Positions 46,116 to 62,976 of a stretch of 64,000 bases of DNA are shown piece after piece. Both the position numbers and the translations under genes were made by a program. The notes under the pieces are model-generated. The model saw only the letters and a list, made by a program, of their open reading frames with translations. It had not been told where the DNA came from and made no database searches. This stretch comes from Lentibacter algarum. GTDB taxonomy: Bacteria > Pseudomonadota > Alphaproteobacteria > Rhodobacterales > Rhodobacteraceae. The stretch lies in the NCBI RefSeq assembly GCF_018860975.1, contig NZ_JAHKQI010000010.1, positions 496,001 to 560,000 on the forward strand, in the 5' to 3' direction. The first letter of the stretch is position 1. Each line of letters starts with the position of its first letter.

Positions 46116-46679
46116 TTACATCGTGTCAATTGGGTCTTCTCCCAAAAGCGTTTGAAACGCGTGAACAACATCAGTAGCGCGATATTGTTGGCCAAATTTT
46201 GCACTATGTAAAAACATGCCTTCAAGGACATACATTAACAGGCCCGCTTGCATGCGTGGCAGATATTCAGACAGCATCACTTGGGTGTCTTTGGACCATT
46301 CCATGCACATTGGTCTTAGGTCGGAATCGTCCAGCCCCGACAAGTAAAAATCATAATCAACCATCATCTCGGCATGAGAATGGCAAGTGATGTGTTCCAA
46401 CACATTTGCGAGCACCGCAGAAAGAGTGCCCCCCTCCTCTGTATCATCAAGTGCAGCCCGGAACCGGTTAAAGTACCTTTCGCGCGCGGCAATAGTAGCT
46501 TCACGTATGAGTTCTTTGCGACTCTTGTAGTGGTAAGTCAATGTACCCAAACCAATGCCGGATTCCTTTGCCACCGCGCGAAAAGTAACGTTTGCAGCGC
46601 CATCTCTCTGTGCAACAGCATGTGTTGCGGCAGTAACCGTTATCCTTGAGAATGGGACTGAAGCCTTCAATGAGGTCAC
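46116..46679 (-). CDS. TetR-family transcriptional regulator (BetI-like)
   Basis: The ~187-residue protein has a TetR helix-turn-helix (VTFRAVAKESGIGLGTLTYH, YKSRKELIREATIAA) and an all-helical effector domain. The frame is open up to 46826, but that part lies inside the flavin reductase gene and has no TetR character, so I place the start at the GTG at 46679. It lies downstream of the hydroxylase genes on the same strand and may autoregulate that unit; the palindrome at 48814-48826 is a candidate operator. Confidence 0.8.
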   Translation of the reverse strand: MTSLKASVPFSRITVTAATHAVAQRDGAANVTFRAVAKESGIGLGTLTYHYKSRKELIREATIAARERYFNRFRAALDDTEEGGTLSAVLANVLEHITCHSHAEMMVDYDFYLSGLDDSDLRPMCMEWSKDTQVMLSEYLPRMQAGLLMYVLEGMFLHSAKFGQQYRATDVVHAFQTLLGEDPIDTM

Positions 46680-46749
46680 CTTATGGGTCGGGTTACAAAC
46701 TTCAAGGCCGACATAACAGCCTCCACAATCTGGGTCGAACAAGCGGGTA

Positions 46750-47238
46750 TCAAGCCTGTTCAAAGCGGCCAAAACTTCGATCAAAATAGAGCAGCGACTT
46801 GCCGGCTTCACGAAGCCTTTGATCAACGATATGTCCGATGAAAATATTGTGTGTGCCTACCGTTTGCACTTCAGCAATCTCGCAATCGCACGATACCAAG
46901 GATGTCCTCAAAGCTGGAGATCCAGTACGCAATGTTTCCCACTCCGCATGAGCATAGCGCTCGTCCATATCCTGAACCTTGCCAGCGAATACCGATGCAA
47001 GATCGGTGCTGTCATGGCGCATCACATTCACGCAGAAGCAGCCGTTGTCGACAAAGGTCCGGGTCTGCGCCGACTTTGTATTCATACAAACCAACAAGGT
47101 CGGCGGATCATCCGTCACACTGCACATGGCGGTGGCGACAAAACCGCCACGCCCCGCGGATCCATCGGTGGTAATCAGATTTACCGACCCGCAGACCCGC
47201 GCCATGCCCTCGCGGAACTGATCTATACTCAGCTCCAT
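46750..47238 (-). CDS. Flavin reductase of a two-component monooxygenase (HpaC-like)
   Basis: The 162-residue protein matches the flavin-reductase-like split-barrel family: FREGMARVCGSVNLITTDG, ATAMCSVTDDPPTLLVCMN, DNGCFCVNVMRHDSTDLASV and the GDPVxxHNIFIGHI-type ending VGTHNIFIGHIVDQR. It supplies reduced flavin to the hydroxylase encoded immediately upstream. ATG 47238 is preferred to GTG 47244 because GGAGG lies eight bases before it. The hydroxylase stop codon is only six bases away, so the two are coupled. Confidence 0.9.
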   Translation of the reverse strand: MELSIDQFREGMARVCGSVNLITTDGSAGRGGFVATAMCSVTDDPPTLLVCMNTKSAQTRTFVDNGCFCVNVMRHDSTDLASVFAGKVQDMDERYAHAEWETLRTGSPALRTSLVSCDCEIAEVQTVGTHNIFIGHIVDQRLREAGKSLLYFDRSFGRFEQA

Positions 47239-47243
47239 TGCCA

Positions 47244-48776
47244 CTACCTCCGCTTGACTGTTGAGACATCATTCGGGTTGAACATGTCATCAACGGTCCA
47301 GCCCTGCAGATCATATTCGCTCATGCAGGCTTCGACCATGCCACGTGCATGATCAAGATATCCATTCTGGCGCGCATTCGCGAGACCCAACATATGACTG
47401 ACTTCAGGTTGACCAAAGTAGTTTAATTCATACAATTCGTGCCGCGCACCAAACTCGCTCCCGATCGCATCCCACAGCAGCTTCATGGTTTTGGAACGGT
47501 CATACACCGTATGACCATCGCTACCTCGCAAGTATTTTTCAAGGTCCGGTGTGATTTCCGGGTTTTGGAGATCGACCGCATGGCTGTTCAAATAGATGAG
47601 GCCTGATGCAACCACACTTTCGATCAGGTGACGAACACGGCTGTACAACTGCGGAGCCAAAGCCGCGTAAGCGCGTCCATAGGCTTTTGAAGGAACAAAA
47701 GAATCACCGGGCCCCGGGCGGGCGTCTTCGATCATTCCGTCCCGAATAGCTGTCAGTGCGTTGCGCCAGCTCAGAACTTCACCCAAAGAAGTTTCAACGC
47801 CGCGGAATTGACCGGCACCAGTGATGTCCAGCGCCTTGCTCAGCGCGCCAACCAGAAAGTCGAGTTTGACGCTCATACGGGTAGATGCCTGCATCAAAGC
47901 ACGCCCTTCCCAAGCGGTGCCAAATTCCAAGTTATTGATCGTATCTACGTCATACACGATCACATTTTCCCAAGGGATCAACGCCTTATCCAACACCAGC
48001 ACCGCGTCGTTTTCATCGCAGCGGCTAGACAGTGGATTGTCGAACGGACTGGTCGCGACAGCAGCGTTGTACTCATACGAGGACCGGCAGTACATTTTGA
48101 CGCCTTGCCCGTTGGTTGGGCAGATGAAGGCCAGCGCAAATTTCTTATCCCGTACCGGCGCACCTGTGTGAGAGATAAACAAAAACTGAGTATGGGGTGA
48201 TCCAGTTGCCACTACTTTGGCACCGCTGATAACCAGCCCTGCGTCGGTTTCCTTCTCGACATGCATGAAAACATCGCCAACTTCTTCGATAGGCTTGGAA
48301 CGGTCCACCGGAGGATTCACGATGGCATGCGCCATATGCAGCACATTTTCCTGCGCCTTTTGGTACCAGTTCAAGGCGTTGTCTTTGTACTCACCAAAAT
48401 AGTCAGAATTCGTGCCCATCCCGACCAACAGTGCAGCTTTGTAGTCAGGTGTCCGCCCCATCCAACCAAACGACAGTTCCTGCCAAGCCTGAATGGCATC
48501 GCGCGACTTGCGCAGGTCATCTTTATTGCGCTGGACGCGGAAGGAAGCATGCGTCAAGCCGCCATTTCCAGTATCGGTAGGAACCAAAATGCGCTTGCTG
48601 AGGTTTTCGTCATGCATGGCATCGTAGAGGCGGGCCATGGATCGAGCAGAGTTGCGAAAGCCAGGGTGCGTTGTAACATCGTCAACACGTTCTCCGTGGA
48701 ACCAGACTTCACGTCCATCGCGCAGAGATTCCAAGTAGTCTGCCCCTGTTGGCAGTTTTAATGTGTGAGTGTTCAT
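47244..48776 (-). CDS. hpaB: 4-hydroxyphenylacetate 3-hydroxylase-family flavin monooxygenase
   Basis: The 510-residue protein belongs to the HpaB family: DYFGEYKDNALNWYQKAQEN, ISGAKVVATGSPHTQFLFIS, LVLDKALIPWENVIVYD. With a reductase partner such enzymes hydroxylate phenols ortho to the OH group, giving catechols. ATG 48776 is preceded by AAGGAGGGC; an open frame further up is not used. A LysR regulator is divergently encoded 210 bases away, and an extradiol dioxygenase lies beyond it. True substrate (4-hydroxyphenylacetate or another phenol) is not fixed by sequence. Confidence 0.9.
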   Translation of the reverse strand: MNTHTLKLPTGADYLESLRDGREVWFHGERVDDVTTHPGFRNSARSMARLYDAMHDENLSKRILVPTDTGNGGLTHASFRVQRNKDDLRKSRDAIQAWQELSFGWMGRTPDYKAALLVGMGTNSDYFGEYKDNALNWYQKAQENVLHMAHAIVNPPVDRSKPIEEVGDVFMHVEKETDAGLVISGAKVVATGSPHTQFLFISHTGAPVRDKKFALAFICPTNGQGVKMYCRSSYEYNAAVATSPFDNPLSSRCDENDAVLVLDKALIPWENVIVYDVDTINNLEFGTAWEGRALMQASTRMSVKLDFLVGALSKALDITGAGQFRGVETSLGEVLSWRNALTAIRDGMIEDARPGPGDSFVPSKAYGRAYAALAPQLYSRVRHLIESVVASGLIYLNSHAVDLQNPEITPDLEKYLRGSDGHTVYDRSKTMKLLWDAIGSEFGARHELYELNYFGQPEVSHMLGLANARQNGYLDHARGMVEACMSEYDLQGWTVDDMFNPNDVSTVKRR

Positions 48777-48813
48777 GCAGCCCTCCTTTGGCCTAAATAG
48801 CGCGTTCGTACAG

Positions 48814-48826
48814 ATGTACAGTACAT
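48814..48826. promoter_or_regulatory. Candidate operator palindrome in hpaB-LysR gap
   Basis: ATGTAC-A-GTACAT is a perfect inverted repeat about 40 bases above the hydroxylase start. It could be bound by the TetR regulator at 46116-46679 or another dimeric factor. Confidence 0.5.
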
Positions 48827-48843
48827 GACGATTTGGAATCTGC

Positions 48844-48864
48844 ATGGTGCAAAATACGCACCAT
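48844..48864. promoter_or_regulatory. Candidate LysR-type operator
   Basis: ATGGTGC and GCACCAT flank a 7-base spacer, an inverted repeat of the size and spacing (containing T-N11-A) expected for LysR regulators. It lies between the hydroxylase gene and the divergent LysR gene at 48987. A further half-site, TGGTGC, follows at 48867-48872. Confidence 0.6.
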
Positions 48865-48986
48865 ACTGGTGCTAGAAAAGGACAGGTGGCCTGGAGGGGT
48901 AATCCTCCCTAAAGGGGATTGAGTTCGTCGCGCGCATCGAACATTGTTGTCCAAAGTGAACAAAACAAAGTTAGATATGCATCAAG

Positions 48987-49874
48987 ATGGATACGGTTGA
49001 GGCTATAAGAACCCTAATAGCGGTTGTTGAACACGGCAGTTTTTCTGCAGCCGGGCGCCGCATTCGCGTTAACCGCTCAGTAGTTAGTCGCAGCATTGAG
49101 GCCTTGGAAGCAAGCATCGGTGTTCGCTTGGTCAACCGCACGACACGGTCTCTTAGCTTAACTGAAGCTGGGCGAATCTATTATGAAGGTGCCAAAAAGA
49201 TTCTATCCGAATTGGATCAGCTGAAAGATTCTGTCGTCGAAACAAAGACCCGGCTCAAAGGATCAATGCGAGTTTCCGCTCCTGTTCACTTTGGGGAATG
49301 GCAGTTGCTTCCGATCGTCCAAGAATTCTTGAAGCGGCATCCCGGTATCAATATGCGCTTGGAGCTAAACAATGAACACGTTGATATCATAGATGGTAGG
49401 TACGATTTGGTCGTGCGTACAGCGCCGCTTCTCGAAGATTCCTCATTTGTCGCGCGCAGAATTTCAATGAACAGCTTTGTACCCTGCGCGTCTCCTGCAT
49501 ATTGTGAAAGATATGGTCAACCCAAGACACCCGATGAACTGTCCAAGCACTTTTGTATCGCTTCTATCGGTCACTCGGGCTCAAAAAATTGGGTATTTTC
49601 CGGACCTGACCAAGTCCTCGTGTCAGTCCCTATTACGCCAAGATTGACGCTCAACGCGGGATCCGCACAAATTCGCGCTGTGAAAGAGGGAATGGGCATT
49701 GCTCTGCTGCCTGAGTATGTTGCCAAAGCTGGCGTATCTTCAGGAGAACTCGTATCTTTGTTGGAAGACTTCGAACATCAAAATTATCCGATATTTGCCA
49801 TATACCCGCACAAGGACATGCTACCAATTCGGACACGCAAGTTTCTAGATGTACTCAGTGAAGCGCTCCGATAA
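48987..49874 (+). CDS. LysR-family transcriptional regulator
   Basis: The 295-residue protein starts MDTVEAIRTLIAVVEHGSFS with the winged helix AAGRRIRVNRSVVSRSIEAL, and ends with IYPHKDMLPIRTRKFLDVLS. It is of the CrgA/AaeR-like group. It is transcribed divergently from the hydroxylase pair and faces the dioxygenase gene tail to tail, so it is the likely activator of the aromatic cluster. Confidence 0.92.
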   Translation: MDTVEAIRTLIAVVEHGSFSAAGRRIRVNRSVVSRSIEALEASIGVRLVNRTTRSLSLTEAGRIYYEGAKKILSELDQLKDSVVETKTRLKGSMRVSAPVHFGEWQLLPIVQEFLKRHPGINMRLELNNEHVDIIDGRYDLVVRTAPLLEDSSFVARRISMNSFVPCASPAYCERYGQPKTPDELSKHFCIASIGHSGSKNWVFSGPDQVLVSVPITPRLTLNAGSAQIRAVKEGMGIALLPEYVAKAGVSSGELVSLLEDFEHQNYPIFAIYPHKDMLPIRTRKFLDVLSEALR

Positions 49875-49949: not shown

Positions 49950-50843
49950 TTAACTAAGTTTACTTAAACTGCCATCTTTATGTTGATGATGGTGGCCGAA
50001 TATATCATCGGGATAATATTCAGATTGCGGCTTGGGACCGACATTGCCGCCCCAGCCCATTTCGATCAGCCAGTCCGAGGGCGTATGCACATAAAACGAC
50101 ACCATGTTATCATTTGAGTGGCGACCTGGGTGGAAGAAGAAGCCCACACCTTTTTCCATAGCTGTATCGTAAGTCAGGCCAAAGTCGTCGAAGCTTTCGA
50201 ACTGTAAGCCCAAATGATAGATGCGATGTTCGTCTCCCATACCAAAAGCAATTGTATGATCACGGTCATTGCAGCCCATGAATGTTGGGCCGTTCTCAAT
50301 CCCACCCTGCTCGTTGGGATACTCAACATCGCCGCGCATGCCCAACGCCGTGTAAAAACGATAGGCCGCCTCAACATCCTTTTGCCCAAGAACAATATGG
50401 CCAAGACCCGCAGTCCCCAACACATAGTTGTGGTGCATCCTGCGTCCCGGATGGAACGGCTTGTGCCTTTCAACGCAGGGCCCATGAAAAATTTCGACGT
50501 TATATCCGTCGGGATCCTTCATTTTCAAAATCGCAGTGACCTTGCGTTCTTGAGCCTCCTCGACTGTGCCGACCCGAAAATCGATGCCAGCGGCAGTAAG
50601 CTGATCCTGCATTTGTGAAAACTCTTCACGCCCCGCGACGCGAAGGCCAAAGTAAGCAATGTTATCCTCACCAGTGGCAACAAGATCAATCCGGCGATGC
50701 CAATAGTCAGCGCGAAGTTGGCAAAGTTGATCCGTGGCGCCTTCAGCGATCTCCATTGCGAGAATATCTGTTGCAAACGCTTTCCAAGCGGGCATGTCGC
50801 TTACGCTCAACCCTAGATAGCCAAGTTCTGTTACCTGAACCAT
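49950..50843 (-). CDS. Type I extradiol (catechol meta-cleavage) dioxygenase
   Basis: The 297-residue VOC-fold protein begins MVQVTELGYLGLSVSDMPAW and has two repeats. Iron ligands of the BphC/HsaC type are visible: His in GLGHIVLGQKDVEAAYRFY, His in HRIYHLGLQFESF, and Glu in DWLIEMGWGGNVG. It would open a catechol ring next to the hydroxyl pair. I chose ATG 50843 because VOC sequence starts there; the frame is open 175 codons upstream but that part is antisense to the hydratase gene. The divergent hydratase gene starts 159 bases away. Confidence 0.92.
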   Translation of the reverse strand: MVQVTELGYLGLSVSDMPAWKAFATDILAMEIAEGATDQLCQLRADYWHRRIDLVATGEDNIAYFGLRVAGREEFSQMQDQLTAAGIDFRVGTVEEAQERKVTAILKMKDPDGYNVEIFHGPCVERHKPFHPGRRMHHNYVLGTAGLGHIVLGQKDVEAAYRFYTALGMRGDVEYPNEQGGIENGPTFMGCNDRDHTIAFGMGDEHRIYHLGLQFESFDDFGLTYDTAMEKGVGFFFHPGRHSNDNMVSFYVHTPSDWLIEMGWGGNVGPKPQSEYYPDDIFGHHHQHKDGSLSKLS

Positions 50844-51002
50844 TTTTTGCCTCCCGACTTTACGAATTGCTGTTACAAACAAACTATGTTGCCGCAGGTC
50901 ACATGCGTAGCAGAAATTCGGAACCACTGCTGCACGATCATCGCAACAATCGATTTCGAATGTACTGCTATACTTGACAACAACACAGTAGGGATACGAA
51001 AT

Positions 51003-51797
51003 TTGACACTTAGCAACCAACAGCGGCAAGCCTATGCGAAACAGCTTTATGAGGCTGAACTGACGGGCAATTGGATCGACTATCCCACAAAGGTATTTCC
51101 AGAGGTCGACATTGAAGACGCCTATGCCATCGGTCAGCACGTCACGGACCTCAAGGTCGCGGATGGACGAGTCATCAAGGGTCACAAAGTTGGATATACT
51201 TCCGCTGCGATGCGGCGGGCATTTGGTGCGGTTGAACCCGATTATGGCACTTTGTTCGATGACTGGTTCGTCGACGAAGGCACCATGATCGACAAGTCCC
51301 GGTTGAACTTGCCTTGGGTTGAAATCGAACTTCTGTTTGCACTGAAAGCCCCACTTGGCGGTCCGCATGTCAATGCGATTGATGTGATACAGGCGACCGA
51401 TTTTATCGTTCCTGCGATCGAAATATGCGACAACCGTTACAAGACGGATGATTACACAGGCGTCATCGATTCCATTGCTGATGCGGCTTCTTGTGGTTTG
51501 GTCGTCGTCGGCGGCAACCCTGTCCGGTTGACTGACGTAGATCCACGGGCACTATCGGGTGCCCTATTTATCAACGGTGAGCCCGTCGAAAGTGGCGCCG
51601 CCGCTGCCGTCATGGGGAACCCTGTAAATGCGGTTGCTTGGCTTGCACGCAAGTTGCATTCATTTGGTGTAACGATGCAGCCTGGCCATTCAATCCTGTC
51701 AGGCTCATTCATCGCTGCGCGTTCCATCAAACCTGGGGATGCGATATTGGCCGATTTCGGGCAACTTGGCCAAGTCAGCTTTGGTGTAACATCCTGA
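51003..51797 (+). CDS. 2-oxo-hept-4-ene-1,7-dioate / 2-keto-4-pentenoate hydratase
   Basis: The 264-residue protein has VIKGHKVGYTSAAMRRAFGA, DYGTLFDDWF, PWVEIELLFALKAPLGG and GHSILSGSFIAA, matching the HpaH/MhpD hydratase family with its metal-binding Glu pair. It adds water to the dienol product of meta-cleavage. The start is a TTG at 51003 with GGGATA upstream; no ATG exists between it and unrelated upstream sequence. The aldolase follows 10 bases later. Confidence 0.88.
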   Translation: MTLSNQQRQAYAKQLYEAELTGNWIDYPTKVFPEVDIEDAYAIGQHVTDLKVADGRVIKGHKVGYTSAAMRRAFGAVEPDYGTLFDDWFVDEGTMIDKSRLNLPWVEIELLFALKAPLGGPHVNAIDVIQATDFIVPAIEICDNRYKTDDYTGVIDSIADAASCGLVVVGGNPVRLTDVDPRALSGALFINGEPVESGAAAAVMGNPVNAVAWLARKLHSFGVTMQPGHSILSGSFIAARSIKPGDAILADFGQLGQVSFGVTS

Positions 51798-51807
51798 GGA
51801 TACCGAT

Positions 51808-52566
51808 ATGAACAAGTCTTTGTCACTGTTAGACCGAATCGAAACCGAGCAGACGGTTTTGGGCGCTTGGATGTTCTTTCGTGAACCGGTGATCGCCGGA
51901 ACGGCCTCCAAACAGGGGTATGATTTCGTCTGCATCGACATGCAGCACGGTATGCAAAGCTTCGGCGACATGACCAGCATGATCAATGCTGTACGGCTAG
52001 GCGACGCATTGCCGCTCGTGCGCACAGCATCAGCGGATGAAGGACTGGCAGGGCGGTATCTGGATGCAGGTGCCGCCGGTGTCATCTTCCCCATGATTGA
52101 GACACGGGAACAAGCCGAAGCCTGTGTTAGCGCATGTTTTTACCCGCCCAAGGGAGCGCGCAGTATGGGAGCCATTGGGGCCACGCTGCTCTACGGTGAT
52201 GATTATTTTGATGTCGCCAATAGCATCACCAGTGCCATCCCGATGATTGAAACCCGCTTGGCTGTGGAAAACCTAGATGAGATTCTCGCAGTTGAGGGGG
52301 TGGATATTATTTTCGTCGGGCCATCAGATTTGGCGATTTCCTATGGTTTGCCGCCCGCCAATGACAGCCCCGATCCAGAATATCAGGCAGCCCTCACCCG
52401 GATTGTTAACCGTTGCCGTGCCCACAATGTTATTGCGGGTATCTATAGCTCGGCTCTGCTGGGCCCACAACGAATCGAACAAGGGTTTCGACTGCTTTCA
52501 ATCACAACTGATTGGGACAGTGCGGTTGCTGGTATCACCGCAGATTTGAATGCAGTTCGACGTTAG
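51808..52566 (+). CDS. HpcH/HpaI-family aldolase (4-hydroxy-2-oxo-acid type)
   Basis: The 252-residue protein has YDFVCIDMQHGMQSF, YLDAGAAGVIFPMIETREQA, IPMIETRLAVENLDEIL and IIFVGPSDLAISYGL, all HpaI family marks with metal-binding Glu and Asp. It would split a 4-hydroxy-2-oxo acid into pyruvate and an aldehyde, the last step after the hydratase with which it forms an operon. A paralogue is at 22373-23146. Confidence 0.92.
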   Translation: MNKSLSLLDRIETEQTVLGAWMFFREPVIAGTASKQGYDFVCIDMQHGMQSFGDMTSMINAVRLGDALPLVRTASADEGLAGRYLDAGAAGVIFPMIETREQAEACVSACFYPPKGARSMGAIGATLLYGDDYFDVANSITSAIPMIETRLAVENLDEILAVEGVDIIFVGPSDLAISYGLPPANDSPDPEYQAALTRIVNRCRAHNVIAGIYSSALLGPQRIEQGFRLLSITTDWDSAVAGITADLNAVRR

Positions 52567-52801
52567 TACCGAGACGCAACATCAGCATGCCGGGCGTTTC
52601 GTCCTAATATGTTTCTAATTTCCTTGAACCGGCATTTCAGGCTATTTCACATGCGTGGTCGAGAGCACGCTGAGGCCCGGCGGCCCTTGCACAGGTGCTG
52701 TCCTAATCATGCACGCATCTGCAATGATCTAACAACAAACATGCCGAGTTTTTGCAACAAGTTACGGTTAATGATCGGTGAACTTTAGGGAGAAAGAGAA
52801 A

Positions 52802-53746
52802 ATGAAATCACTTTGTAAATTCGTAGTCGGATTGGGTGTGGCACTCGGCGCACCTTCGTTCGCGTTGGCGGAAGGCTATCCAGAAAAGCCCGTGTCATTT
52901 GTCGTGCCATGGGCACCGGGGGATCTTGAAGACCTGCTGACAAGAATGATCGCTGAGGAATTCCAGAACGAATATGGCGTGGCGGCGGCCGTGGTCAACA
53001 AGCCAAGTGGAGGCGGCGGCCCGTTCCCGGGTGCTGCCGAAGTCGCCAAGGCACCAGCTGATGGTTACACTGTCGGTTCCTTTGTATCTGGCGTTCCGCT
53101 TGTTGGCCCTTACGTGGGCATCCCAGAACTGACACCTGATCCGTTTGATGCTATCGGTATTTTCCTGACATACCCCTTTGTCATAGCTGCAGCAAAAGAT
53201 GCACCGTATAGCAATATGGAAGAACTGGCTGCCTATTCACAAGAAAACAAAATAGTCTTGGGTCACTACGGTAACTTCCTTCTGCCAACAAAAGTGACGA
53301 AGGCGCACGCGCAACGTGCAGGCATTCGTTACTACACAGACGCCGCTTACGATGTTCTGGACTGCAATTCGATCAGGTCCGGCGACGTGGATGTTATGAA
53401 CACCACAATTCCCGCGATATTGCCCTGCCTCGACAAAATTCAAGTTTTGGCAGCCATCACCGAAGAGCGCACCAGTTATGCACCTGACGCACCGACCATT
53501 GGTGAGGTTTATCCAGATCTGACGCTCACACTTTGGAATGGTTTGTTTGTGCACAAAGACACACCACAAGACGTGCGCGACAAGATCGCTGTAGTCGCCG
53601 AACGAGTGATGGCAGGTGAAGCCGCTCAAAAATTGGCCGCTGATACAGGTGCCGGTGTTTACTGGCAGGACGCTGAAACCTCTCTTGCACGGATACTGAA
53701 GGACGGCGAAACCAGCGCGCAGGTCGACGAAGCACTCAAAGAGTAA
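52802..53746 (+). CDS. Tripartite tricarboxylate transporter substrate-binding protein (TctC)
   Basis: The 314-residue protein has a signal peptide (MKSLCKFVVGLGVALGAPSF, cleaved near ALA-EG) and the Bug/TctC mature pattern YPEKPVSFVVPWAPGD, APADGYTVGSF and DTPQDVRDKIAVV. It binds a carboxylate in the periplasm. A TTT membrane pair follows, so the set is complete. ATG 52802 is chosen for its AGGGAGAAAG ribosome-binding site. Given the neighbours, an aromatic acid or sulfo-ester is the probable cargo, which is inference. Confidence 0.9.
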   Translation: MKSLCKFVVGLGVALGAPSFALAEGYPEKPVSFVVPWAPGDLEDLLTRMIAEEFQNEYGVAAAVVNKPSGGGGPFPGAAEVAKAPADGYTVGSFVSGVPLVGPYVGIPELTPDPFDAIGIFLTYPFVIAAAKDAPYSNMEELAAYSQENKIVLGHYGNFLLPTKVTKAHAQRAGIRYYTDAAYDVLDCNSIRSGDVDVMNTTIPAILPCLDKIQVLAAITEERTSYAPDAPTIGEVYPDLTLTLWNGLFVHKDTPQDVRDKIAVVAERVMAGEAAQKLAADTGAGVYWQDAETSLARILKDGETSAQVDEALKE

Positions 53747-53822
53747 GCCTCACACCATTGCCAAACACGGCGTTTGCGAGCCCGTGTTTGGCCCAACTAC
53801 CTTACAGAAGTGGGAGCATCAG

Positions 53823-54396: not shown

Positions 54397-55887
54397 ATGG
54401 AAACTTTATTTTCCAGTATCAGCATTATCGCAAATTGGCAGGTGATGGCTGCTCTTGTCGCCGGTTCCATCGGTGGGGTTATCATCGGGGCTATGCCCGG
54501 CGTTGGCCCTGCTATGGCCATTGCGATCCTCTTGCCTGCAACCTTTTCAATGGAACCAATCGTCGGTCTGACTTTGTTAATGGGGGTATACGGCGCGGCC
54601 ATGTTTGGCGGCGCGATACCCGCGATCTTGATGAATGTTCCAGGGACAGCCGTTAACGCTCTTACCACCTACGACGGTTACCCGATGACCCAGAAAGGGC
54701 AAGCGGGTCGCGCGCTGTCTCTTGCCTATGGTGCTTCGTTTGTTGGTGGTGTGTTCTCGATCGTCTGTTTGATGTTGTTCTCCCCCGGACTGGCGGAAAT
54801 TGCACCGTTGTTTGGCTCACGGGAAATTTTCATGGCCGCGTTGCTTGGGGCCGTGCTGGTCGTCGTTGCACATCCGGGACAAGCGCTTCTTTCCGGTCTC
54901 TTGTTCTTTTTTGGGATGTTCTTGGCATCGGTAGGGCTTGAGAATTTTCAGATGTCGCAACGCTACACATTTGATCAGCCATGGCTCTCGTCCGGCTTCG
55001 ACATGATTGTTGTTATTCTGGGCCTTTTTGCTTTGAGCCAAGCGTTCTATTTGCTGATGTCCAAGGACAAATCTTTGGAAAGCCTTGAAACGCCCAAAAA
55101 TTTACGCAGCGGTTTGTGGGAAGTTTTTCGCCTTCCTAAGGCCAGCATAATCTCATCATGCTTTGGTGTGGTCATGGGCGTTGTACCGGGCGTTGGTCAG
55201 TTTATCGCTCAGTTCTTCGCTTACACAGTTATTCAAGGTACATCAAAAAAACCCGAGACTTTTGGTGCCGGTGCTCCAGAAGGTATCATCGCATCAGAAG
55301 CGGCCAATAACGCCGTTCCTGCGTCTGCGATGATCCCACTGCTTGCGCTTGGTATCCCCGGAGAAGCAGTGACTGCAATGATGCTAGCAGTGTTCTACGT
55401 CCACAATGTTGTCCCCGGCCCCCAGCTTTTTGTCGAAGAATTTGACTTTGTTCTGGCGCTTTACCTCTGCCTGCTGCTGGCAAATGTTATCACTCTTCTA
55501 TTCTTGTTGGTGTCGACTGGCGTTGTCGTCAAGATTGCGAAAATTCCAAATCGCTACCTTGGAATGCTGACACTCACCATGTCGTTCATCGGGGTGTATA
55601 CACTCCGGAATTCATTCACGGACTGCATCATCGCGTCAGTGTTTGGATTTATCGGCCTGATTCTAAAGCGTATGGAACTGCCGACCACGCCAATCGTTTT
55701 GGGAATGGTTCTCGGCCCGATCATGGAAGCGAAGTTCCGGACCTCAATGGCCCGCGTAGAAACGCCTCTCGATTTCATCAATCGGCCGATTTCGGGAACT
55801 ATCTTTGGCATCATCGTTCTTTGCATTGTCGCTCAGATATTTTTGAAAGTTCGTGCCGCTAGACGCCAGAAGGCTGCACAAGCCTAA
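54397..55887 (+). CDS. Tripartite tricarboxylate transporter large permease (TctA)
   Basis: The 496-residue protein has about twelve membrane segments and the paired TctA motifs GAMPGVGPAMAIAILLPATF and GVVPGVGQFIAQFFAY, with GAPEGIIASEAANNAVPASA. It is the transport core of the TTT system started at 52802. Confidence 0.94.
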   Translation: METLFSSISIIANWQVMAALVAGSIGGVIIGAMPGVGPAMAIAILLPATFSMEPIVGLTLLMGVYGAAMFGGAIPAILMNVPGTAVNALTTYDGYPMTQKGQAGRALSLAYGASFVGGVFSIVCLMLFSPGLAEIAPLFGSREIFMAALLGAVLVVVAHPGQALLSGLLFFFGMFLASVGLENFQMSQRYTFDQPWLSSGFDMIVVILGLFALSQAFYLLMSKDKSLESLETPKNLRSGLWEVFRLPKASIISSCFGVVMGVVPGVGQFIAQFFAYTVIQGTSKKPETFGAGAPEGIIASEAANNAVPASAMIPLLALGIPGEAVTAMMLAVFYVHNVVPGPQLFVEEFDFVLALYLCLLLANVITLLFLLVSTGVVVKIAKIPNRYLGMLTLTMSFIGVYTLRNSFTDCIIASVFGFIGLILKRMELPTTPIVLGMVLGPIMEAKFRTSMARVETPLDFINRPISGTIFGIIVLCIVAQIFLKVRAARRQKAAQA

Positions 55888-55905: not shown

Positions 55906-56202
55906 ATGAGAGCAGACACAACCGCACAGGGTGTTGCCGATACAAAAATGGCAAGCCGCTACCTTCAGCAGCTATGCAAGCATTGGTCGCACAAGGCTGA
56001 AACTGCATTTGACGCTGAAAAGGGTACGATTGTCTTTGAGAGCGGAGAATCCGTATCGTTGAAAGCAGCGTTTGATCAACTCCATGTCGAAGTAACAACC
56101 AAGGACAGCGCAGGACTTGATCCTTTTTGTAAAGTTGTTGCAGAACATCTTGAGAGGTTTGGGTTTCGAGAAGATTTTTCTGTGACTTGGCAGACCGTCT
56201 AG
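55906..56202 (+). CDS. DUF2218-domain small protein
   Basis: The 98-residue soluble protein contains ASRYLQQLCKHWSHKAE and FCKVVAEHLERFGFRED, the pattern of the DUF2218 family. These proteins often sit in iron or transporter loci; the biochemical role is unknown. It follows the TctA gene by 18 bases and precedes the sulfatase by 31, so it is part of the operon. Confidence 0.8.
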   Translation: MRADTTAQGVADTKMASRYLQQLCKHWSHKAETAFDAEKGTIVFESGESVSLKAAFDQLHVEVTTKDSAGLDPFCKVVAEHLERFGFREDFSVTWQTV

Positions 56203-56233: not shown

Positions 56234-57895
56234 ATGAACGTACTTTGGATCATGTGTGATCAGCTGCGCTATGACTATCTTGGCTGTACAGGGCACCCCC
56301 ACATCAAAACACCGAATATTGATGCGCTGGCAAATGACGGATTGTTGTTTTCCCATGCGTATGCGCAGTCAACGATTTGTGGTCCCAGCCGTATGAGCGC
56401 GTACACAGGACGGTACATGCGCTCGCACGGATCGACGACAAATGCCTCGCCATTGCGTGTGGGAGAGCCAACTCTTGGCGATCATCTGGCCGATGTGGAT
56501 GTGGCGGCCGTGCTGATCGGAAAGACCCATATGACACCTGATGTGGAAGGTATGCGTCATTTTGGGATAGAAGCAGATAGCCTCATTGGTGTCAGAACAG
56601 CAGAATGCGGATTCATACCCTATCACCGCGACGACGGGCTGCATCCCGCAACGTCCAATCCGGACCCGGATACCGATTACTTCAATCACTTGCGCGATAA
56701 TGGGCTTGAGGCTGACAACCCTTGGGAGGCTTTTGCCAATTCCGTCGAAGGTGAAGATGGCGAAACGCTGAGCGGGTGGTTTATGCGCCATGCCGGCAAG
56801 CCTGCGAAGGTGCCGGCAGAACTTTCGGAAAGTGCATATCTGACGGATCAAGCCATAAACTTCATGGATCAGGCAAAAGGACCATGGGTTGCGCACGTAA
56901 GCTATATCAAACCGCACTGGCCCTACATTGCGCCCGCGCCTTATCATAATATGTACAGTGTAGATGATGTCCTGCCAGCAGTACGGACGGTGGCAGAACG
57001 GCATGAAAAACATCCAGTCATAAAGGCGTATCAGGACGAACGACATTCGCGGGCTTTCTCACGTGATGAAGTACGCGACACCGTTGTTCCAACCTATATG
57101 GGCCTGATCTCCGAAGTTGATACCCAGATTGGCCGCATTATCTCGCACCTAAAAGAGAACGATCAGTATTACAAAACGATGATCGTGTTCTGCTCGGACC
57201 ACGGTGACTATTTAGGCGATCACTGGTTGGGTGAAAAAAGCCTGTTCCACGATCCTTCGGTTCGGATACCTTTTATCGTGCGGGACCCCCGTATAGAGGC
57301 AAATGTTACACGTGGGCAGATATGCAATGAGTTGGTCGAGATGATAGATATCGCGCCGACAGTGCTCGACCTATACAACTCCGAGCCCAAGGATCACATT
57401 TTGGAAGGGCAAAGCCTGCTCCCGCTCCTTGAAGGCCGCAACTATCAATTCACCCGGTCACATGTCATTTCTGAAAGTCACTATGTAGAAGATCGTGCCG
57501 GTTGGAGCCTAAACCACCCAATTCAGACCTCGATGGCGAGGATGGTCGCGAACAGGCGTTGGAAGCTGATACATTTTGAGCATGCCAATCCGATCCTGTT
57601 TGATCTAGAAGCAGATCCGGATGAGTTGCTTAATGTCGCATTGGACCCCAAAAATGCAAATATCCTGCAAGAATTGCTCGACGTTCTTCACACATGGAGT
57701 CGCAATCCTAAATCGAACATCTGTACCCCTTATGCCTATTTTGAGGACTATCAGGAACTGCAGCGGCATTACGACGAATGTGCGATGCTCGGCTACAAGA
57801 TCGGCTATTGGACAGAGGATGAGTTCAAGGAAGAGCACCGCAAACGTGATGTGTATCGACGTGGTCGATCCAAAATTGCCGATCAAGAAGGCTAA
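56234..57895 (+). CDS. Sulfatase-superfamily hydrolase, cytoplasmic
   Basis: The 553-residue protein opens with NVLWIMCDQLRYDYLGC and has CGPSRMSAYTGRY, a C-x-P-S-R motif whose Cys49 would be oxidised to formylglycine. Metal-site segments SDHGDYLGDHWLGEK and HVSYIKPHWPY are present. There is no signal peptide, so it acts in the cytoplasm on an imported substrate. It could be an arylsulfatase, an alkylsulfatase or a phosphonate monoester hydrolase. As the last plus-strand gene after a TTT importer in an aromatic cluster, cleavage of an aryl sulfate ester is a fair guess. Confidence 0.88.
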   Translation: MNVLWIMCDQLRYDYLGCTGHPHIKTPNIDALANDGLLFSHAYAQSTICGPSRMSAYTGRYMRSHGSTTNASPLRVGEPTLGDHLADVDVAAVLIGKTHMTPDVEGMRHFGIEADSLIGVRTAECGFIPYHRDDGLHPATSNPDPDTDYFNHLRDNGLEADNPWEAFANSVEGEDGETLSGWFMRHAGKPAKVPAELSESAYLTDQAINFMDQAKGPWVAHVSYIKPHWPYIAPAPYHNMYSVDDVLPAVRTVAERHEKHPVIKAYQDERHSRAFSRDEVRDTVVPTYMGLISEVDTQIGRIISHLKENDQYYKTMIVFCSDHGDYLGDHWLGEKSLFHDPSVRIPFIVRDPRIEANVTRGQICNELVEMIDIAPTVLDLYNSEPKDHILEGQSLLPLLEGRNYQFTRSHVISESHYVEDRAGWSLNHPIQTSMARMVANRRWKLIHFEHANPILFDLEADPDELLNVALDPKNANILQELLDVLHTWSRNPKSNICTPYAYFEDYQELQRHYDECAMLGYKIGYWTEDEFKEEHRKRDVYRRGRSKIADQEG

Positions 57896-58309: not shown

Positions 58310-59743
58310 TTAACGATGAACGGCCTTCACTTCGAGAAAGTCATCCAATCCAAATGATCCACCTTCGCGGCTGTTGCCAGACATGCGATATCCACCGAAC
58401 GGGCTTCCGTATTTAAATTCGCCGCCATTCACATGAACCATCCCGGCGCGCAAATTCCGGATCAGACGCTCCTGCCGGACTTCATCAGTGGTATGCAGAT
58501 ATGCCGCCAGCCCGTAGGGCGTTGTATTGGCAATCTTCACAGCCTCGTCTTCGGTTTGGAATGGAATGATGACCAAAACCGGGCCAAACACTTCTTCCTG
58601 AGCAATACGCATGTCATTGCCCACTTGGGCAAAAACCGTTGGCTCGATGTAATAGCCAGCCTCGATGGCGTCAGGAGCTTTAGGCCCACCTGCAACTAGT
58701 TGTGCGCCTTCTGCGATCGCTACATTTATCAGGGTCAGAACACGGTCTAGCTGCAGGTCACTTACCAGTGGCCCAATATGTTTACCCATCATGCTTGGAT
58801 CACCAATTTCAATAGCAGAGGCCATTTCGGCCGCCATAGCAACAACTTCGTCATGCACGCTTTGTTCAACCAAAAGACGCGTTGGCGCGTCACAAGATTG
58901 GCCGGTGTTGTTCATGCAATCGTTGACTGTGCTGGCGATCGCCGCTTTCAGATCGGCATCTGCAAATATCAATGAGGGTGACTTGCCGCCCAACTCAAGC
59001 GACACACGTTTTACCGTCTCGGAGGCGGCTTTGCTGATGGCGATGCCGGCACGGGTCGATCCTGTGAAGCTGACCATGTCGACTTCTGGGTGTGTTGTCA
59101 GTGATGTCCCGACACCGACGCCGTCACCTTGAATCAAATTGAAGACACCGGGTGGCACACCAGCGGCATCCAACATCTCGGCATATACCACCGCAGACAA
59201 AGGCGTAATTTCAGAGGGTTTCAGGATGCAGGTACATCCAGTTGCAAGTGCGGGAATAACCTTGAGCGCAATCTGATTGACCGGCCAGTTCCACGGTGTG
59301 ATTAGCGCGCATACCCCAATTGGTTCAAACAGAAGCGTGTCGCCGTTTGCCAAAACCTCACGATCTTCGTGCGCCTCAAGAGCATCGATAAATGCGTCTA
59401 AATGTCCCAAGCCTGTTTCTGTTTGTTGTTCGCGCGCCATATCTATTGGAGCGCCCAATTCAGCAGAAATAGTCTGTGCCATCTCTTCATACCGCTCAAC
59501 ATAGGCTGCGCGGAAACGTCGAAGCAGGTCCAAGCGTTCTGATTTTGTGGTTTGCTTATACGTGGCGGATGCAGCCGCCGCTGCGGATACTGCCCGCTCC
59601 ACGTCGCTGGAATTGCCAAGGGTAATTTTGGCAATCTCAACTTCTGTCGCCGGATTTATGACCGGAATGATCGTATCACCCACCGGCTCACACCATTCTC
59701 CGTTGATGTAGAATCGGCGTGCATTTCCCAATAAGTCAGTCAT
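58310..59743 (-). CDS. NAD(P)-dependent aldehyde dehydrogenase 1
   Basis: The 477-residue protein has the ALDH marks ALITPWNWPVNQIALKVIPA, FTGSTRAG, VSLELGGKSPSLIF (catalytic Glu) and CMNNTGQSCDAPTRL (catalytic Cys). It oxidises an aldehyde to the acid. It overlaps the end of the second ALDH gene by eight bases, so both are translated from one message. In a meta-cleavage cluster it may oxidise the semialdehyde released by the HpaI-type aldolase or by ring cleavage. Confidence 0.94.
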   Translation of the reverse strand: MTDLLGNARRFYINGEWCEPVGDTIIPVINPATEVEIAKITLGNSSDVERAVSAAAAASATYKQTTKSERLDLLRRFRAAYVERYEEMAQTISAELGAPIDMAREQQTETGLGHLDAFIDALEAHEDREVLANGDTLLFEPIGVCALITPWNWPVNQIALKVIPALATGCTCILKPSEITPLSAVVYAEMLDAAGVPPGVFNLIQGDGVGVGTSLTTHPEVDMVSFTGSTRAGIAISKAASETVKRVSLELGGKSPSLIFADADLKAAIASTVNDCMNNTGQSCDAPTRLLVEQSVHDEVVAMAAEMASAIEIGDPSMMGKHIGPLVSDLQLDRVLTLINVAIAEGAQLVAGGPKAPDAIEAGYYIEPTVFAQVGNDMRIAQEEVFGPVLVIIPFQTEDEAVKIANTTPYGLAAYLHTTDEVRQERLIRNLRAGMVHVNGGEFKYGSPFGGYRMSGNSREGGSFGLDDFLEVKAVHR

Positions 59744-61223
59744 CGCGGCGGGGATTTAGAGGGAAACTTGCAAACCGGGTTTCAGTGTAGAACTCGCGGC
59801 TGAACATGCCGCCTTCACGGCCCTGTCCGCTGTCCTTCACTCCCCCAAACGGCTGGCGCAAATCGCGGGCAAATCCAGAATTGATCCAGATCATGCCGGT
59901 TTCCAGCCTAAGGGCCGCATTGTGCGCGCGCTCTATTGAATTTGACCAGATGTACCCCGCAAGACCAAAGGGAGAGTCGTTTGCCATACTCAACGCCTCA
60001 GCATCATCCTTGAAAGGCAAGATCACAGCAACAGGCCCAAACACCTCTTCCTGACAAATCCGGGAAGAATTCGGGGCATCGACAATCGCGGTTGGTTCAA
60101 TGAAGTAGCCTTTGTCCAATCCTTCGGGACGGCCGCCACCGAAAAGCACGCGACCTTCACCCCGTGCGATATCAATATAGCTCATCACGCGGTCATACTG
60201 GCCTTCTGAAACCACAGGTCCCAGTGTTGTTTCGCTTTCCAAAGGATCGCCGATGGTCCATGTTTTTGCCTCCGCTTCAAATTTTTTCAAGAATTCGTCG
60301 TAGATGCTTTCCTGAACTAAAATGCGCGATCCTGCGACACAGGATTGCCCCGTCGTGGAATAGATCGCAAGCGAGGCTTCTTTTGCGGCGAGGTCAATGT
60401 CGGCATCGTCAAAGATGATGCAAGCCGATTTGCCCCCAAGTTCGAACGACGTACGCTTGAGCTGTGACGCAACACGCCCAGATATATCGCGAGCCGTGGC
60501 AGGAGATCCGGTAAAGGACACCCCCGCGACATCTTTGTGACTGACCAGCGGCGGGCCTACCTCTGCGCCGTACCCCATGAGAGAGTTATAAACGCCGTCT
60601 GGCAGACCTGCCTCCTGAAATATCTCGCAAAGCACCTGAATTGACAGCGGCGACAGTTCGGATGACTTGTGAACAGCAGAGTTCCCGTAGGCGAGACAAG
60701 GAGCCATCTTCCATGTGGACAGCATAAACGGTCCATTCCATGGCGTAATCAATGCATAAACCCCCACAGGGTCTGTCATTGTGTACGTCATCAACCGGTC
60801 TTCATGGTTGAATGCATGGTCCCCGGCCTGTGCCTGCTCATCTGCAAAAAACCGAAAGTTCTGTGCCGAGCGTGCGACATAAAATGCAACCTTGCCAGAG
60901 CTGTCCAAGACAGGTTCACCCATCTCCTTTGCCTGCAAATAGGTGATTTCATCAGACCGTTTTTCAATCAAATCTGCGACCCGGTACAACACTTCTTTGC
61001 GGAACGACGGTTTCGCACGGGACCAATCACCACGCATGAATGAATCCTTGGCCGCCTTTACGGCCAGTTCAGCATCGGCGGCATTGCCGCGCTCCACTGT
61101 GCTGATGGCTTCCTCCGATGTCGGGTCTATGACCTGAAAACTTTCGCCAGACACGGAATCGCAAAACTGACCGTTTATGAAATGTTTGGCGTATGGCACT
61201 GAAAAGAAGGGAAATGTGGTCAT
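59736..61223 (-). CDS. NAD(P)-dependent aldehyde dehydrogenase 2 (HpaE-like)
   Basis: The 495-residue protein has ALITPWNGPFMLSTWKMAPC, FTGSPATARDISGRVA, SFELGGKSACIIFDDADIDL and STTGQSCVAGSRILV with catalytic Glu and Cys. The overall pattern is near hydroxymuconic semialdehyde dehydrogenases (HpaE/DmpC), fitting a role right after extradiol cleavage, though this is inference. It is the first gene of a minus-strand pair and faces the RraA gene across a 209-base divergent promoter region. Confidence 0.93.
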   Translation of the reverse strand: MTTFPFFSVPYAKHFINGQFCDSVSGESFQVIDPTSEEAISTVERGNAADAELAVKAAKDSFMRGDWSRAKPSFRKEVLYRVADLIEKRSDEITYLQAKEMGEPVLDSSGKVAFYVARSAQNFRFFADEQAQAGDHAFNHEDRLMTYTMTDPVGVYALITPWNGPFMLSTWKMAPCLAYGNSAVHKSSELSPLSIQVLCEIFQEAGLPDGVYNSLMGYGAEVGPPLVSHKDVAGVSFTGSPATARDISGRVASQLKRTSFELGGKSACIIFDDADIDLAAKEASLAIYSTTGQSCVAGSRILVQESIYDEFLKKFEAEAKTWTIGDPLESETTLGPVVSEGQYDRVMSYIDIARGEGRVLFGGGRPEGLDKGYFIEPTAIVDAPNSSRICQEEVFGPVAVILPFKDDAEALSMANDSPFGLAGYIWSNSIERAHNAALRLETGMIWINSGFARDLRQPFGGVKDSGQGREGGMFSREFYTETRFASFPLNPRRDD

Positions 61224-61432
61224 CAGAATGACGTCCTTGATATTGAACTTGAGCTGCGAAAGTGTGAAACGCCTGAGGTATCAAACATGCAAGCGAAAGA
61301 TAGACCACCTATTGTTGCAGATGTTAGGCAAGTATGTTGTTTATCCTAGTCTTTTCGCCCCCCCAAACGATCACGTATAGTTTCCTTTGTAACACGCGGC
61401 GAAGTCTCGGCGCCAAGTCTGTGGAGAATAGG

Positions 61433-62155
61433 ATGTCTGAGAATACTAGTTCGGTGCTAACGGCTGAAATCAAATCTAAACTGGCTCGTGTAACAACGGC
61501 CTCAATCAGTAGCCAATTGCAGGCGCGTGGGTACCTGAACTGCGTTATGAACAAGCTCAAACCATTGCAGGAAAACCAACGTATGATCGGTATCGCCCAT
61601 ACTTTGCGCTACCTCCCTGTCCGACCTGATCTCAATCAGTGGCACATCCGCGACGTTCAGCGTGAAACTGTCGAGGCCATAAAACCGGGCGAAATTCTGG
61701 TTATTGACGCACGGAACGAGCCTGATGCAGGCACGGTCGGCGATATCTACGCGCTGCGTGTCACAAAACTGGGCGGAGAAGGCGTCATCACAGATGGCGC
61801 GATCCGGGACACGCCAGCAATCAAAAAGCTAGGTGTGCCAGTTTATCATCAGGCATCGAATTCGTCGACGCTTGGCCGCCGCCATGCCGCTGTAGATTCC
61901 CAAATTCCGATCGCATGCGGTGGCGCGGCTGTTGTGCCCGGTGATGTCATTGTCGGTGACGGCGAAGGTGCGATTGTGATTCCAATCGCCATGGTTGAAG
62001 AAATCGCCGACGCCGCCTTGGCGATGGAAATCGAAGAGGAATTTGTGATCACACGGATTGCGGTCGGTGGCTCTACCGTTGATTATTTTCCGCTGACAGA
62101 AGAAAAGCGCGCAGAATACGAGGAATGGCTGGCTGCCAAAGAAGCGGCAGAATAG
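61433..62155 (+). CDS. RraA-family protein, second copy
   Basis: The 240-residue protein has VIDARNEPDAGTVGDIYALR, VITDGAIRDTPAIKKLG and VPGDVIVGDGEGAIVIP, the same active-site frame as the copy at 30311-31063. It is likely a 2-keto acid aldolase or decarboxylase. ATG 61433 is preceded by GGAGAATAGG. It leads a plus-strand trio with RidA (gap 4 bases) and a GlcG/HbpS-like gene (gap 4 bases). In a meta-cleavage pathway it could take the place of a missing decarboxylase. Confidence 0.87.
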   Translation: MSENTSSVLTAEIKSKLARVTTASISSQLQARGYLNCVMNKLKPLQENQRMIGIAHTLRYLPVRPDLNQWHIRDVQRETVEAIKPGEILVIDARNEPDAGTVGDIYALRVTKLGGEGVITDGAIRDTPAIKKLGVPVYHQASNSSTLGRRHAAVDSQIPIACGGAAVVPGDVIVGDGEGAIVIPIAMVEEIADAALAMEIEEEFVITRIAVGGSTVDYFPLTEEKRAEYEEWLAAKEAAE

Positions 62156-62159
62156 TTAG

Positions 62160-62546
62160 GTGCGTCGCTCCATCAATATAGCTGGTCTATCGCATTTGAC
62201 CCCTATCCCTGCGGCAACGCGGGTGGGTCCTATTATCACCTGCTCTATCACCGCACCGTACACGCCCGGGACACGCGACTGTCCCGAAGGAGCCGAAGCG
62301 CAGGTGAAGACAGTTTTTGGTCATGTTGGCGAAATGTTGGAGGCAGCAGGAGGCGATTTTTCCAACGTGGCAAAAATGACCTTTTACGCCCCCGACCCTT
62401 CAGCGATTTTCGCTGCTTTGAATTCCGTCTGGGTGGAGCATTTCCCTGATCCAGCTTCGCGCCCCTCACGTCACACAATGAAGGTGGCAGAGGATTGGGG
62501 CGACATGCTGCTGTGCGCTGATTTCTTGGCATATGTCGAGGAATAG
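62160..62546 (+). CDS. RidA-family protein, second copy
   Basis: The 128-residue protein has ITCSITAPYTPGTRDCPEGA and MLEAAGGDFSNVAKMTFYAP, typical of the RidA/YjgF family but divergent from the 33750-34148 copy. The start is a GTG four bases after the RraA stop. Within catabolic operons such proteins usually act as hydrolases of enamine-like or related intermediates. Confidence 0.85.
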   Translation: MRRSINIAGLSHLTPIPAATRVGPIITCSITAPYTPGTRDCPEGAEAQVKTVFGHVGEMLEAAGGDFSNVAKMTFYAPDPSAIFAALNSVWVEHFPDPASRPSRHTMKVAEDWGDMLLCADFLAYVEE

Positions 62547-62550
62547 GTAA

Positions 62551-62976
62551 TTGGCTGCCGATACGGCTCAGCTCACCACATTGTCTTTTATGGGCGCGCA
62601 GAAGGTGCTTAGCGCTGCCATACAACATGCACAGGAAATTGGAGTGCCGATGTGCATCGCAATAGTAGATGTACGTGCCGTACCAATTCTGACCGCCCGC
62701 ATGGATGAGGCACCCTTTGGAGCTGTTCCGATATGCCTCAACAAGGCACGCACGGTTGTTGGCTTCAATGGATTTGCAACGGCTGAGTGGTGGCCTTCTA
62801 TTCAAGACGATCCAGCCATGGTGCACGGAATCACGCATACTCCGGGCCTTGTTATTTTTGGCGGTGGTGTAGGGCTTTTCAAAGGCGATATCCTGTTGGG
62901 GGCTATCGGGGTCAGCGGCGGCGAATCATCCGAAGATGAAACAGTCGCAGCAATTGGTGCTTCTGCATTGCCTTGA
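62551..62976 (+). CDS. GlcG/HbpS (DUF336) family protein
   Basis: The 141-residue protein has LSAAIQHAQEIGVPMCIAIV, DEAPFGAVPICLNKARTVVG and VIFGGGVGLFKGDILLGAIG, the pattern of the GlcG/HbpS/PduO C-terminal-like family. The function of such small proteins in catabolic operons is uncertain; some bind heme or corrinoids, others may assist in keto-acid chemistry. The start appears to be a TTG at 62551. It ends the RraA-RidA trio. Confidence 0.82.
   Translation: MAADTAQLTTLSFMGAQKVLSAAIQHAQEIGVPMCIAIVDVRAVPILTARMDEAPFGAVPICLNKARTVVGFNGFATAEWWPSIQDDPAMVHGITHTPGLVIFGGGVGLFKGDILLGAIGVSGGESSEDETVAAIGASALP

Follow-up and report, generated by a model that had tools for sequence, protein, structure and literature searches.

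Gene content and conservation of the island

The gene island considered here lies at positions 46116-62976 of a 64,000-nucleotide stretch of DNA from Lentibacter algarum (the window; contig NZ_JAHKQI010000010.1, positions 496,001 to 560,000). It is made up of an eleven-gene ring-cleavage core and, between the two halves of this core, a unit that encodes a tripartite tricarboxylate transporter (TTT) importer, a DUF2218 protein and a sulfatase. The first half of the core consists of an HpaC-like flavin reductase (46750-47244, minus strand; PF01613, 111 bits), the oxygenase component of an HpaB-like flavin-dependent phenol hydroxylase (47244-48845, minus), a LysR-family regulator (48987-49874, plus; PF03466 and PF00126), a BphC/NahC-type (VOC, type I) extradiol dioxygenase (49950-50843, minus), an HpaH-like hydratase of the FAH superfamily (50847-51797, plus) and an HpcH/HpaI-type pyruvate aldolase (51808-52566, plus; PF03328). 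The second half contains a general aldehyde dehydrogenase (ALDH2; 58310-59743, minus; PF00171), an HpaE-like semialdehyde dehydrogenase (ALDH1; 59736-61223, minus), an RraA/HMG-CHA-aldolase-like protein (61334-62155, plus; PF03737), a RidA-family protein (62160-62546, plus; PF01042) and an HbpS/GlcG-like (DUF336) protein (62551-62976, plus; PF03928). Pfam and NCBIfam found every gene family named in the first-pass annotation of this DNA at its place in the island.

The eleven core genes form a genuine unit. Genome contigs were scanned with the dioxygenase, a single-protein search that detects close relatives only; of the 24 stretches matched, one (L003, a contig of an Albidovulum metagenome-assembled genome) encodes a relative. 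All eleven core genes lie there in one cluster, with protein identities of 66-87%: ALDH2 (70%), ALDH1 (83%), RraA (71%), RidA (73%), HbpS (71%), HpaI (69%), HpaH (78%), the dioxygenase (84%), LysR (66%), HpaB (87%) and HpaC (79%). Because the grouping recurs in L003, it is more than a chance assembly. Between the LysR and HpaB genes of L003 (12158-13420) are open frames of 420 and 347 amino acids that have no Pfam match; by eye, we take the minus-strand frame to resemble the remnant of an insertion sequence (IS) transposase.

Nucleotide matches between the window and L003 come in blocks. The ALDH2-ALDH1-RraA-RidA-HbpS half is inverted relative to L003, and the TctCBA-DUF2218-sulfatase unit occupies the junction. 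This unit is absent from L003, the only close relative found, which bears out the earlier description of the island as composite. Because it is missing there, the unit is probably an addition to the core.

The island was probably acquired laterally. The dioxygenase gene is present in 1 of 394 genomes of the family (that of L. algarum itself), in one of the seven genomes of the genus, and in 6 of 385 genomes of a class sample including its own, the other five sequences being 41-50% identical. Similarly, RraA at E 1e-55 was limited to the own genome among 198 of the family. The rarity of these two genes and an IS240-type transposase frame beyond HbpS both fit lateral acquisition. Synteny with congeners did not yield an empty site that would mark the boundaries of an insertion, because the best matches to the left-flanking carnitine gene in six congeners are 61-64% identical and the own genome has a second copy (contig C6) at 63%.

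On the left, the island is flanked by a carnitine-type block (window 36696-46000; L003 1-3457) that encodes a carnitine 3-dehydrogenase (over its cut-off), a BKACE protein, a crotonobetainyl-CoA-hydratase-like protein, an ATP-grasp CoA ligase and an acyl-CoA dehydrogenase. Three of these genes are also common to L003 and window 36696-40698 (acyl-CoA dehydrogenase, 94% across the 184 residues available; CoA ligase, 73%; crotonobetainyl-CoA-hydratase-like protein, 81%), and the tract shared by the two thus extends beyond the island. Next to this block, a TetR-family regulator (46116-46826, minus; PF00440 at residues 66-110) opens the island. Its open frame overlaps the reductase gene, and since the TetR_N domain sets in only at residue 66, translation probably starts at a later codon. 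On the right, positions 63000-64000 contain a LysR-like fragment, recognized by eye, followed by a DDE_Tnp_IS240-type transposase frame, and the contig ends 1.3 kb past the window. Promoter-like sites were fewer in the window than in shuffled sequences (12 vs 16.2) and terminator-like sites more frequent (26 vs 18.9), and neither count was used in any reading given here.

Relation of the core to the homoprotocatechuate pathway

The core resembles the homoprotocatechuate (HPC) pathway for the degradation of 4-hydroxyphenylacetate (hpa/hpc). The equivalog comparison with NCBIfam covered the hydroxylase, hydratase, aldolase, aldehyde dehydrogenases, dioxygenase and RraA, while the flavin reductase was assigned by Pfam. 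The best NCBIfam matches are HpaB-2 for the hydroxylase (TIGR02310, 607.6 bits; cut-off 885), HpaH for the hydratase (TIGR02312, 245 bits; cut-off 351), HpaI for the aldolase (TIGR02311, 136 bits; cut-off 369) and HpaE for ALDH1 (TIGR02299, 557 bits; cut-off 638). The homology of the hydratase begins at residue 55 of its open frame, and its start codon is uncertain. Among solved structures, the hydroxylase is best matched by 4oo2 and ALDH1 by 2d4e, an HpaE. Hydroxylase, aldehyde dehydrogenase, hydratase and HpaI-type aldolase occur together in the cluster, and this combination is kept in L003. As in the HPC pathway, a flavin reductase and a second aldehyde dehydrogenase are present. None of the 25 NCBIfam models listed for ALDH2 exceeds its cut-off, and no equivalog model points to its substrate; ALDH2 is a candidate for oxidizing the semialdehyde left by the aldolase. 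Unlike the enzymes of the HPC pathway itself, those of the island score under the equivalog cut-offs. Moreover, the cluster possesses a BphC/NahC-type dioxygenase instead of the HpaD type, and it lacks HpaF and HpaG but includes RraA, RidA and HbpS. Overall, the core is likely to be a diverged form of the HPC pathway that contains RraA and a BphC-type dioxygenase, and the view of the island as an HPC-like meta-cleavage pathway is upheld.

The gene for the dioxygenase is shorter than its 472-residue open frame and begins with an ATG at 50843 on the minus strand. Its product has two VOC domains and belongs to the BphC/NahC type, with 2wl3 and 2ehz as its best matches among solved structures and a Sphingobium BphC (51% identity) as its closest match in plasmid records. 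It scores 290 bits with TIGR03213, below the cut-off of 366, and 57 bits with the HpaD model TIGR02295, for which the cut-off is 321. The first-pass annotation had described the enzyme as BphC type and not HpaD type, and these scores agree with that description, although the difference is one of subfamily: the HpaD of TIGR02295 presumably belongs to the same VOC superfamily, as both models align to the island enzyme. When aligned to 2wl3, 2ehz and 1han, the enzyme retains H158, H205, H219, H251, Y260 and E270 (numbering of a translation that has nine residues ahead of the start M). By analogy to BphC, these comprise a 2-His-1-Glu iron site and catalytic His and Tyr residues.

Pfam and NCBIfam detected neither HpaF nor HpaG in the cluster, whose sole FAH-type protein is the HpaH-like hydratase. 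The earlier statement that HpaF and HpaG are missing is therefore correct for the cluster but not for the genome. PF02962 (HpaF) occurs in the own genome on contig C9 only, in an operon that also encodes HpaE, HpaD and HpaH above their cut-offs, together with an HpaG-like FAH protein that does not reach its own. The genome thus holds one canonical HPC operon in addition to the divergent cluster of the island. In Acinetobacter, the middle steps are described as a CHM isomerase, an OPET decarboxylase and an HHDD isomerase, and a spontaneous isomerization of CHM is reported as well (PMC12718150).

In the cluster, the likeliest candidate for the missing decarboxylase is RraA. Among NCBIfam models, it is matched best by the C-terminal half of NF009399, an FAH-RraA family (257 bits). 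It also exceeds the cut-off of NF006093, and its translation shows an R-D pair that may bear on a metal-dependent aldolase or decarboxylase activity. In four actinobacterial plasmid loci, from Paenarthrobacter (pTC2, L015), Rhodococcus (L016), Arthrobacter (L175) and Embleya (L176), FAH and RraA domains are encoded in one open frame beside HpaE- and HpaD-like genes. The fusion is annotated as a single gene in L015 and L016, and no stop codon separates the domains in L175 and L176. Three of the loci (L015, L016 and L175) continue with genes for HpaH and HpaI, while neither is found in the L176 stretch examined, and none of the four has an HpaF match at E 1e-4. The three best plasmid matches of ALDH1 fall in three of these same loci. 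As in the island, an RraA-like domain is therefore found with an HpaE-like aldehyde dehydrogenase where HpaF has no match; unlike in the island, it is joined to an FAH domain, and the loci have an HpaD-like dioxygenase. In addition, an HMG/CHA aldolase of the RraA superfamily is reported to have oxaloacetate decarboxylase activity (PMC5065237). Together, the NF009399 match, the fusions in HPC loci, the links through ALDH1 and this activity favor RraA for the decarboxylation. In Burkholderia vietnamiensis G4 and Sphingobium yanoikuyae, genes similar to HbpS adjoin those for catechol 2,3-dioxygenase, so other meta-cleavage clusters carry a gene of this kind too.

The importer-sulfatase unit

The genes of the unit form one run on the plus strand that starts 211 bp after the end of HpaI. 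The run consists of the periplasmic binding protein TctC (52778-53746; PF03401), the small membrane subunit TctB (53784-54389; PF07331), the large membrane subunit TctA (54397-55887; PF01970, 425 bits), the DUF2218 protein (55906-56202; PF09981) and a formylglycine (type I) sulfatase that belongs to the SpAS group and lacks an N-terminal extension (56234-57895). The gaps between them, measured from the ends of the open reading frames, are 37, 7, 18 and 31 bp. All three components of a TTT system, TctA, TctB and TctC, are thus present.

The sulfatase is probably a cytoplasmic arylsulfatase, as judged from its sequence. Its nearest solved relatives are 4upi (620 bits) and 4upl (554 bits). The CxPSR nucleophile motif appears as C49-G-P-S-R, aligned to 4upi, where the nucleophile position is A. 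In the sequence G96-K-T-H-M, the lysine and histidine align with K101 and H103 of SpAS1 (4UPI). These positions are reported to separate arylsulfatases (AS) from phosphonate monoester hydrolases (PMH) and are Y and T in RlPMH (PMC5488252). The island enzyme therefore shares its family, the CxPSR motif and the K/H signature with the arylsulfatases of the SpAS1/SpAS2 type; set against these, it is about 50% identical to its nearest relatives in genomes and plasmids. The protein begins directly with the first active-site strand. Additionally, the own genome encodes three PF03781 proteins (contigs C10, C5 and C8), and the one compared, from C5, matches solved formylglycine-generating enzymes (FGEs) at 7.7e-87. 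The start of the protein, the K/H signature and the presence of an FGE all support the first-pass assignment to a cytoplasmic sulfatase.

Partial parallels to the unit exist. A megaplasmid of Ruegeria pomeroyi (L010) encodes relatives of TctA (62%), TctC (56%) and the sulfatase (52%). As in the island, the TTT-sulfatase genes are near genes of a ring-cleavage type, as they follow a gentisate-dioxygenase-like cupin and an FAH gene. In contrast to the island, the cupin takes the place of an extradiol enzyme, and the stretch contains no DUF2218 match. In L116 (2086-12267), the sulfatase gene is on the same strand as genes for a TRAP importer (a fused permease and an NMT1-like binding protein), an aldehyde dehydrogenase, an iron alcohol dehydrogenase and a DUF3237 protein, with HpaF-like (47%) and HpaI-like genes 4.6 kb further on. 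This locus is a partial parallel to the island with another type of importer.

The importer and DUF2218 genes also have relatives beside HPC operons. Five of the 15 listed plasmid loci with DUF2218 were examined, from Phaeobacter sp. G2, Ruegeria SCSIO 43209, AD91A, THAF33 and R. conchae (L125, L126 and L192-L194). In all five, DUF2218 ends an HPC operon, after HpaF-HpaE-HpaD-FAH-HpaH and an HpaI-like frame that is unlisted in the gene table, and TctCBA lies within 3 kb of hpaR in three (L125, L192 and L193). These Roseobacter operons (HpaF-E-D-G-H-HpaI-DUF2218) therefore share with the island a terminal DUF2218 and, in those three loci, a nearby TctCBA. They differ in that no match to the sulfatase, BphC, RraA, RidA, HbpS or HpaB occurs in the stretches examined. 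In L192 and L193, TctCBA, an aldehyde dehydrogenase and class III aminotransferases adjoin HPC operons that include a pyridoxal-phosphate-dependent decarboxylase, a setting that suggests the catabolism of aromatic amines. Proteins with DUF2218 have been placed in metallophore and iron-uptake loci (PMC11317620), and at a guess the island protein might supply iron to the dioxygenase.

Proposed pathway and its alternatives

From gene families and gene order, we infer the following reactions, substrate and roles for RraA, RidA and HbpS. The island may encode a variant catabolic route whose substrate is an aromatic acid with a para-hydroxyl group, of the same type as 4-hydroxyphenylacetate, and a front end that handles the sulfate ester of this acid would have been added to it. 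TctCBA would import the acid or its O-sulfate, and the cytoplasmic arylsulfatase would release the phenol, which HpaBC would hydroxylate to a catechol. Ring opening by the BphC/NahC-type dioxygenase would yield a muconate semialdehyde, and ALDH1 would oxidize the aldehyde to a tri-acid. This product could be isomerized spontaneously or by RidA or HbpS and then decarboxylated, most likely by RraA. Finally, HpaH would hydrate the product, HpaI would split off pyruvate, and ALDH2 would oxidize the remaining semialdehyde. A probability of roughly 0.45 is assigned to this reading as a whole.

A number of observations weigh against it. The core can evidently do without the unit, given that none of TctA, TctB, TctC, DUF2218 and the sulfatase has a match in L003, and L003 is the one relative of the core that was found. 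The HpaB-, HpaE-, HpaH- and HpaI-like enzymes and the dioxygenase all fall below their equivalog cut-offs, and the substrate may differ accordingly. The neighborhoods of other sulfatase genes also offer little support. Sixty regions (L060-L119) were compared, a subset of the listed places made up chiefly of those with the highest scores, plus a few weak ones; L064 and L103 overlap, L080 and L081 are the other copies of the own genome, and L100-L102 are whole contigs of less than 9 kb. Because the neighbor search used only the proteins of the window and five Hpa proteins of the canonical pathway, aromatic genes of other kinds may have escaped it. None of the 60 regions has a match to BphC or HpaB. 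A close TctA (at least 55% identity) is found in two only: in L060, TctA, TctC and the sulfatase share a strand and a Rieske oxygenase gene is nearby, and in L111, which also has TctC, TctA lies 3.5 kb from a sulfatase gene on the other strand, and an IclR/PcaR-like regulator gene is nearby. Four further regions possess a distant TctA (30-31%). The first-pass annotation had envisaged that the sulfatase and importer would be conserved along with the dioxygenase; neither these regions nor L003 bear this out, and no general co-conservation of the sulfatase with ring cleavage was found in the 60 regions.

The same applies to DUF2218. Among 40 regions of the family sample (from 56 listed places, not counting the window), none has a match to HpaF, HpaG or HpaH, one has a weak HpaD match (29%, L167) and two have an aldehyde dehydrogenase (L169 and L172). 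A general link between DUF2218 and HPC operons was thus not found in these 40 regions, and the link holds for the examined plasmid loci of Ruegeria and Phaeobacter. In a tree of DUF2218, the nearest neighbors of the island protein among the sequences included are two from the ends of HPC operons of Phaeobacter and Ruegeria, and the support for this grouping is only 94/48. In the tree of 14 RraA sequences, the island, HPC-fusion and sugar-acid clades are distinguished, but two branches are very long and no sister pair among the three clades emerges.

One alternative is that the unit is an unrelated insertion into a variant HPC-like core and scavenges some other organosulfate for sulfur or carbon. 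Sulfatases of the SpAS type are widespread, with 90 of 198 genomes of the family positive at E 1e-120, and 54 of the 60 regions have no TctA-like gene; these counts and the absence of the unit from L003 speak for such an insertion. However, the unit sits between the halves of the core and on the same strand after HpaI, relatives of TctA-TctC and DUF2218 accompany Ruegeria HPC operons, the importer-sulfatase pair of R. pomeroyi adjoins a gene of the ring-cleavage type, and the L116 sulfatase is near HpaF- and HpaI-like genes. An unrelated insertion is considered less likely than the reading proposed above. The position of the unit, its operon-like form, the signature residues of its sulfatase and the partly parallel loci of R. 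pomeroyi and L116 make a joint function with the core plausible, and so are a front end for sulfated substrates and the uptake of a sulfated aromatic acid.

A second alternative is compatible with either reading of the front end. In this case, the cluster would not be self-sufficient: HpaF and the HpaG-like protein of contig C9 would provide the isomerase and decarboxylase in trans, and RraA, RidA and HbpS would be accessory proteins for damage control, iron or heme. The operon of HpaF, HpaE, HpaD, HpaG-like and HpaH genes on C9 could serve this purpose, and efficient decarboxylation of the tri-acid in Acinetobacter is reported to require the OPETD-HHDDI pair (PMC12718150). In contrast, L003 retains RraA-RidA-HbpS within the core cluster, and HPC loci of actinobacteria join an RraA domain to an FAH domain. 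Supply in trans is also held to be the less probable arrangement, at about the same level as an unrelated insertion.

More doubtful still is a simple phenol or alkylphenol as the substrate, with a catechol meta pathway as the route. Such a route would suit a dioxygenase of the BphC/NahC/AkbC type and the HbpS-like gene, as found in two catechol meta operons, and two plasmid relatives of HpaB are near catechol-type dioxygenase genes, though intradiol ones. The models of the HPC pathway nevertheless score higher than those of the catechol pathway for both ALDH1 (557 vs 438 bits) and HpaH (245 vs 182 bits), and the aldolase belongs to the HpcH/HpaI family. Lastly, a phosphonate monoester or phosphodiester hydrolase in place of the sulfatase is highly improbable and was rejected, since the enzyme, although in the same AS/PMH group (2vqr and 2w8s are among its matches), carries the K/H signature and not the Y and T of RlPMH (PMC5488252) and matches 2vqr with only 212 bits, far below 4upi and 4upl.

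The island holds nothing categorically new. Its most unusual features would be the replacement of HpaF and HpaG by RraA with RidA and/or HbpS, and the feeding of sulfated phenolic acids into intracellular ring cleavage by an importer and an arylsulfatase; that both apply is rather unlikely. Literature searches, judged by titles and abstract openings, turned up no description of this gene set, none of a TTT system combined with an arylsulfatase and aromatic catabolism, and none of either such an RraA middle section of an extradiol pathway or such a sulfatase-importer entry.

Marine plants and algae make sulfate esters of phenolic acids. Literature searches suggest that the uptake and breakdown of these esters by bacteria have been little described. 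If RraA is the decarboxylase, a reaction would be assigned to a subfamily of RraA, and HPC loci without an HpaF match would be explained. Should the proposed front end operate, it would provide a physiological role, in one setting, for the SpAS-type arylsulfatases found in nearly half of the sampled family genomes.

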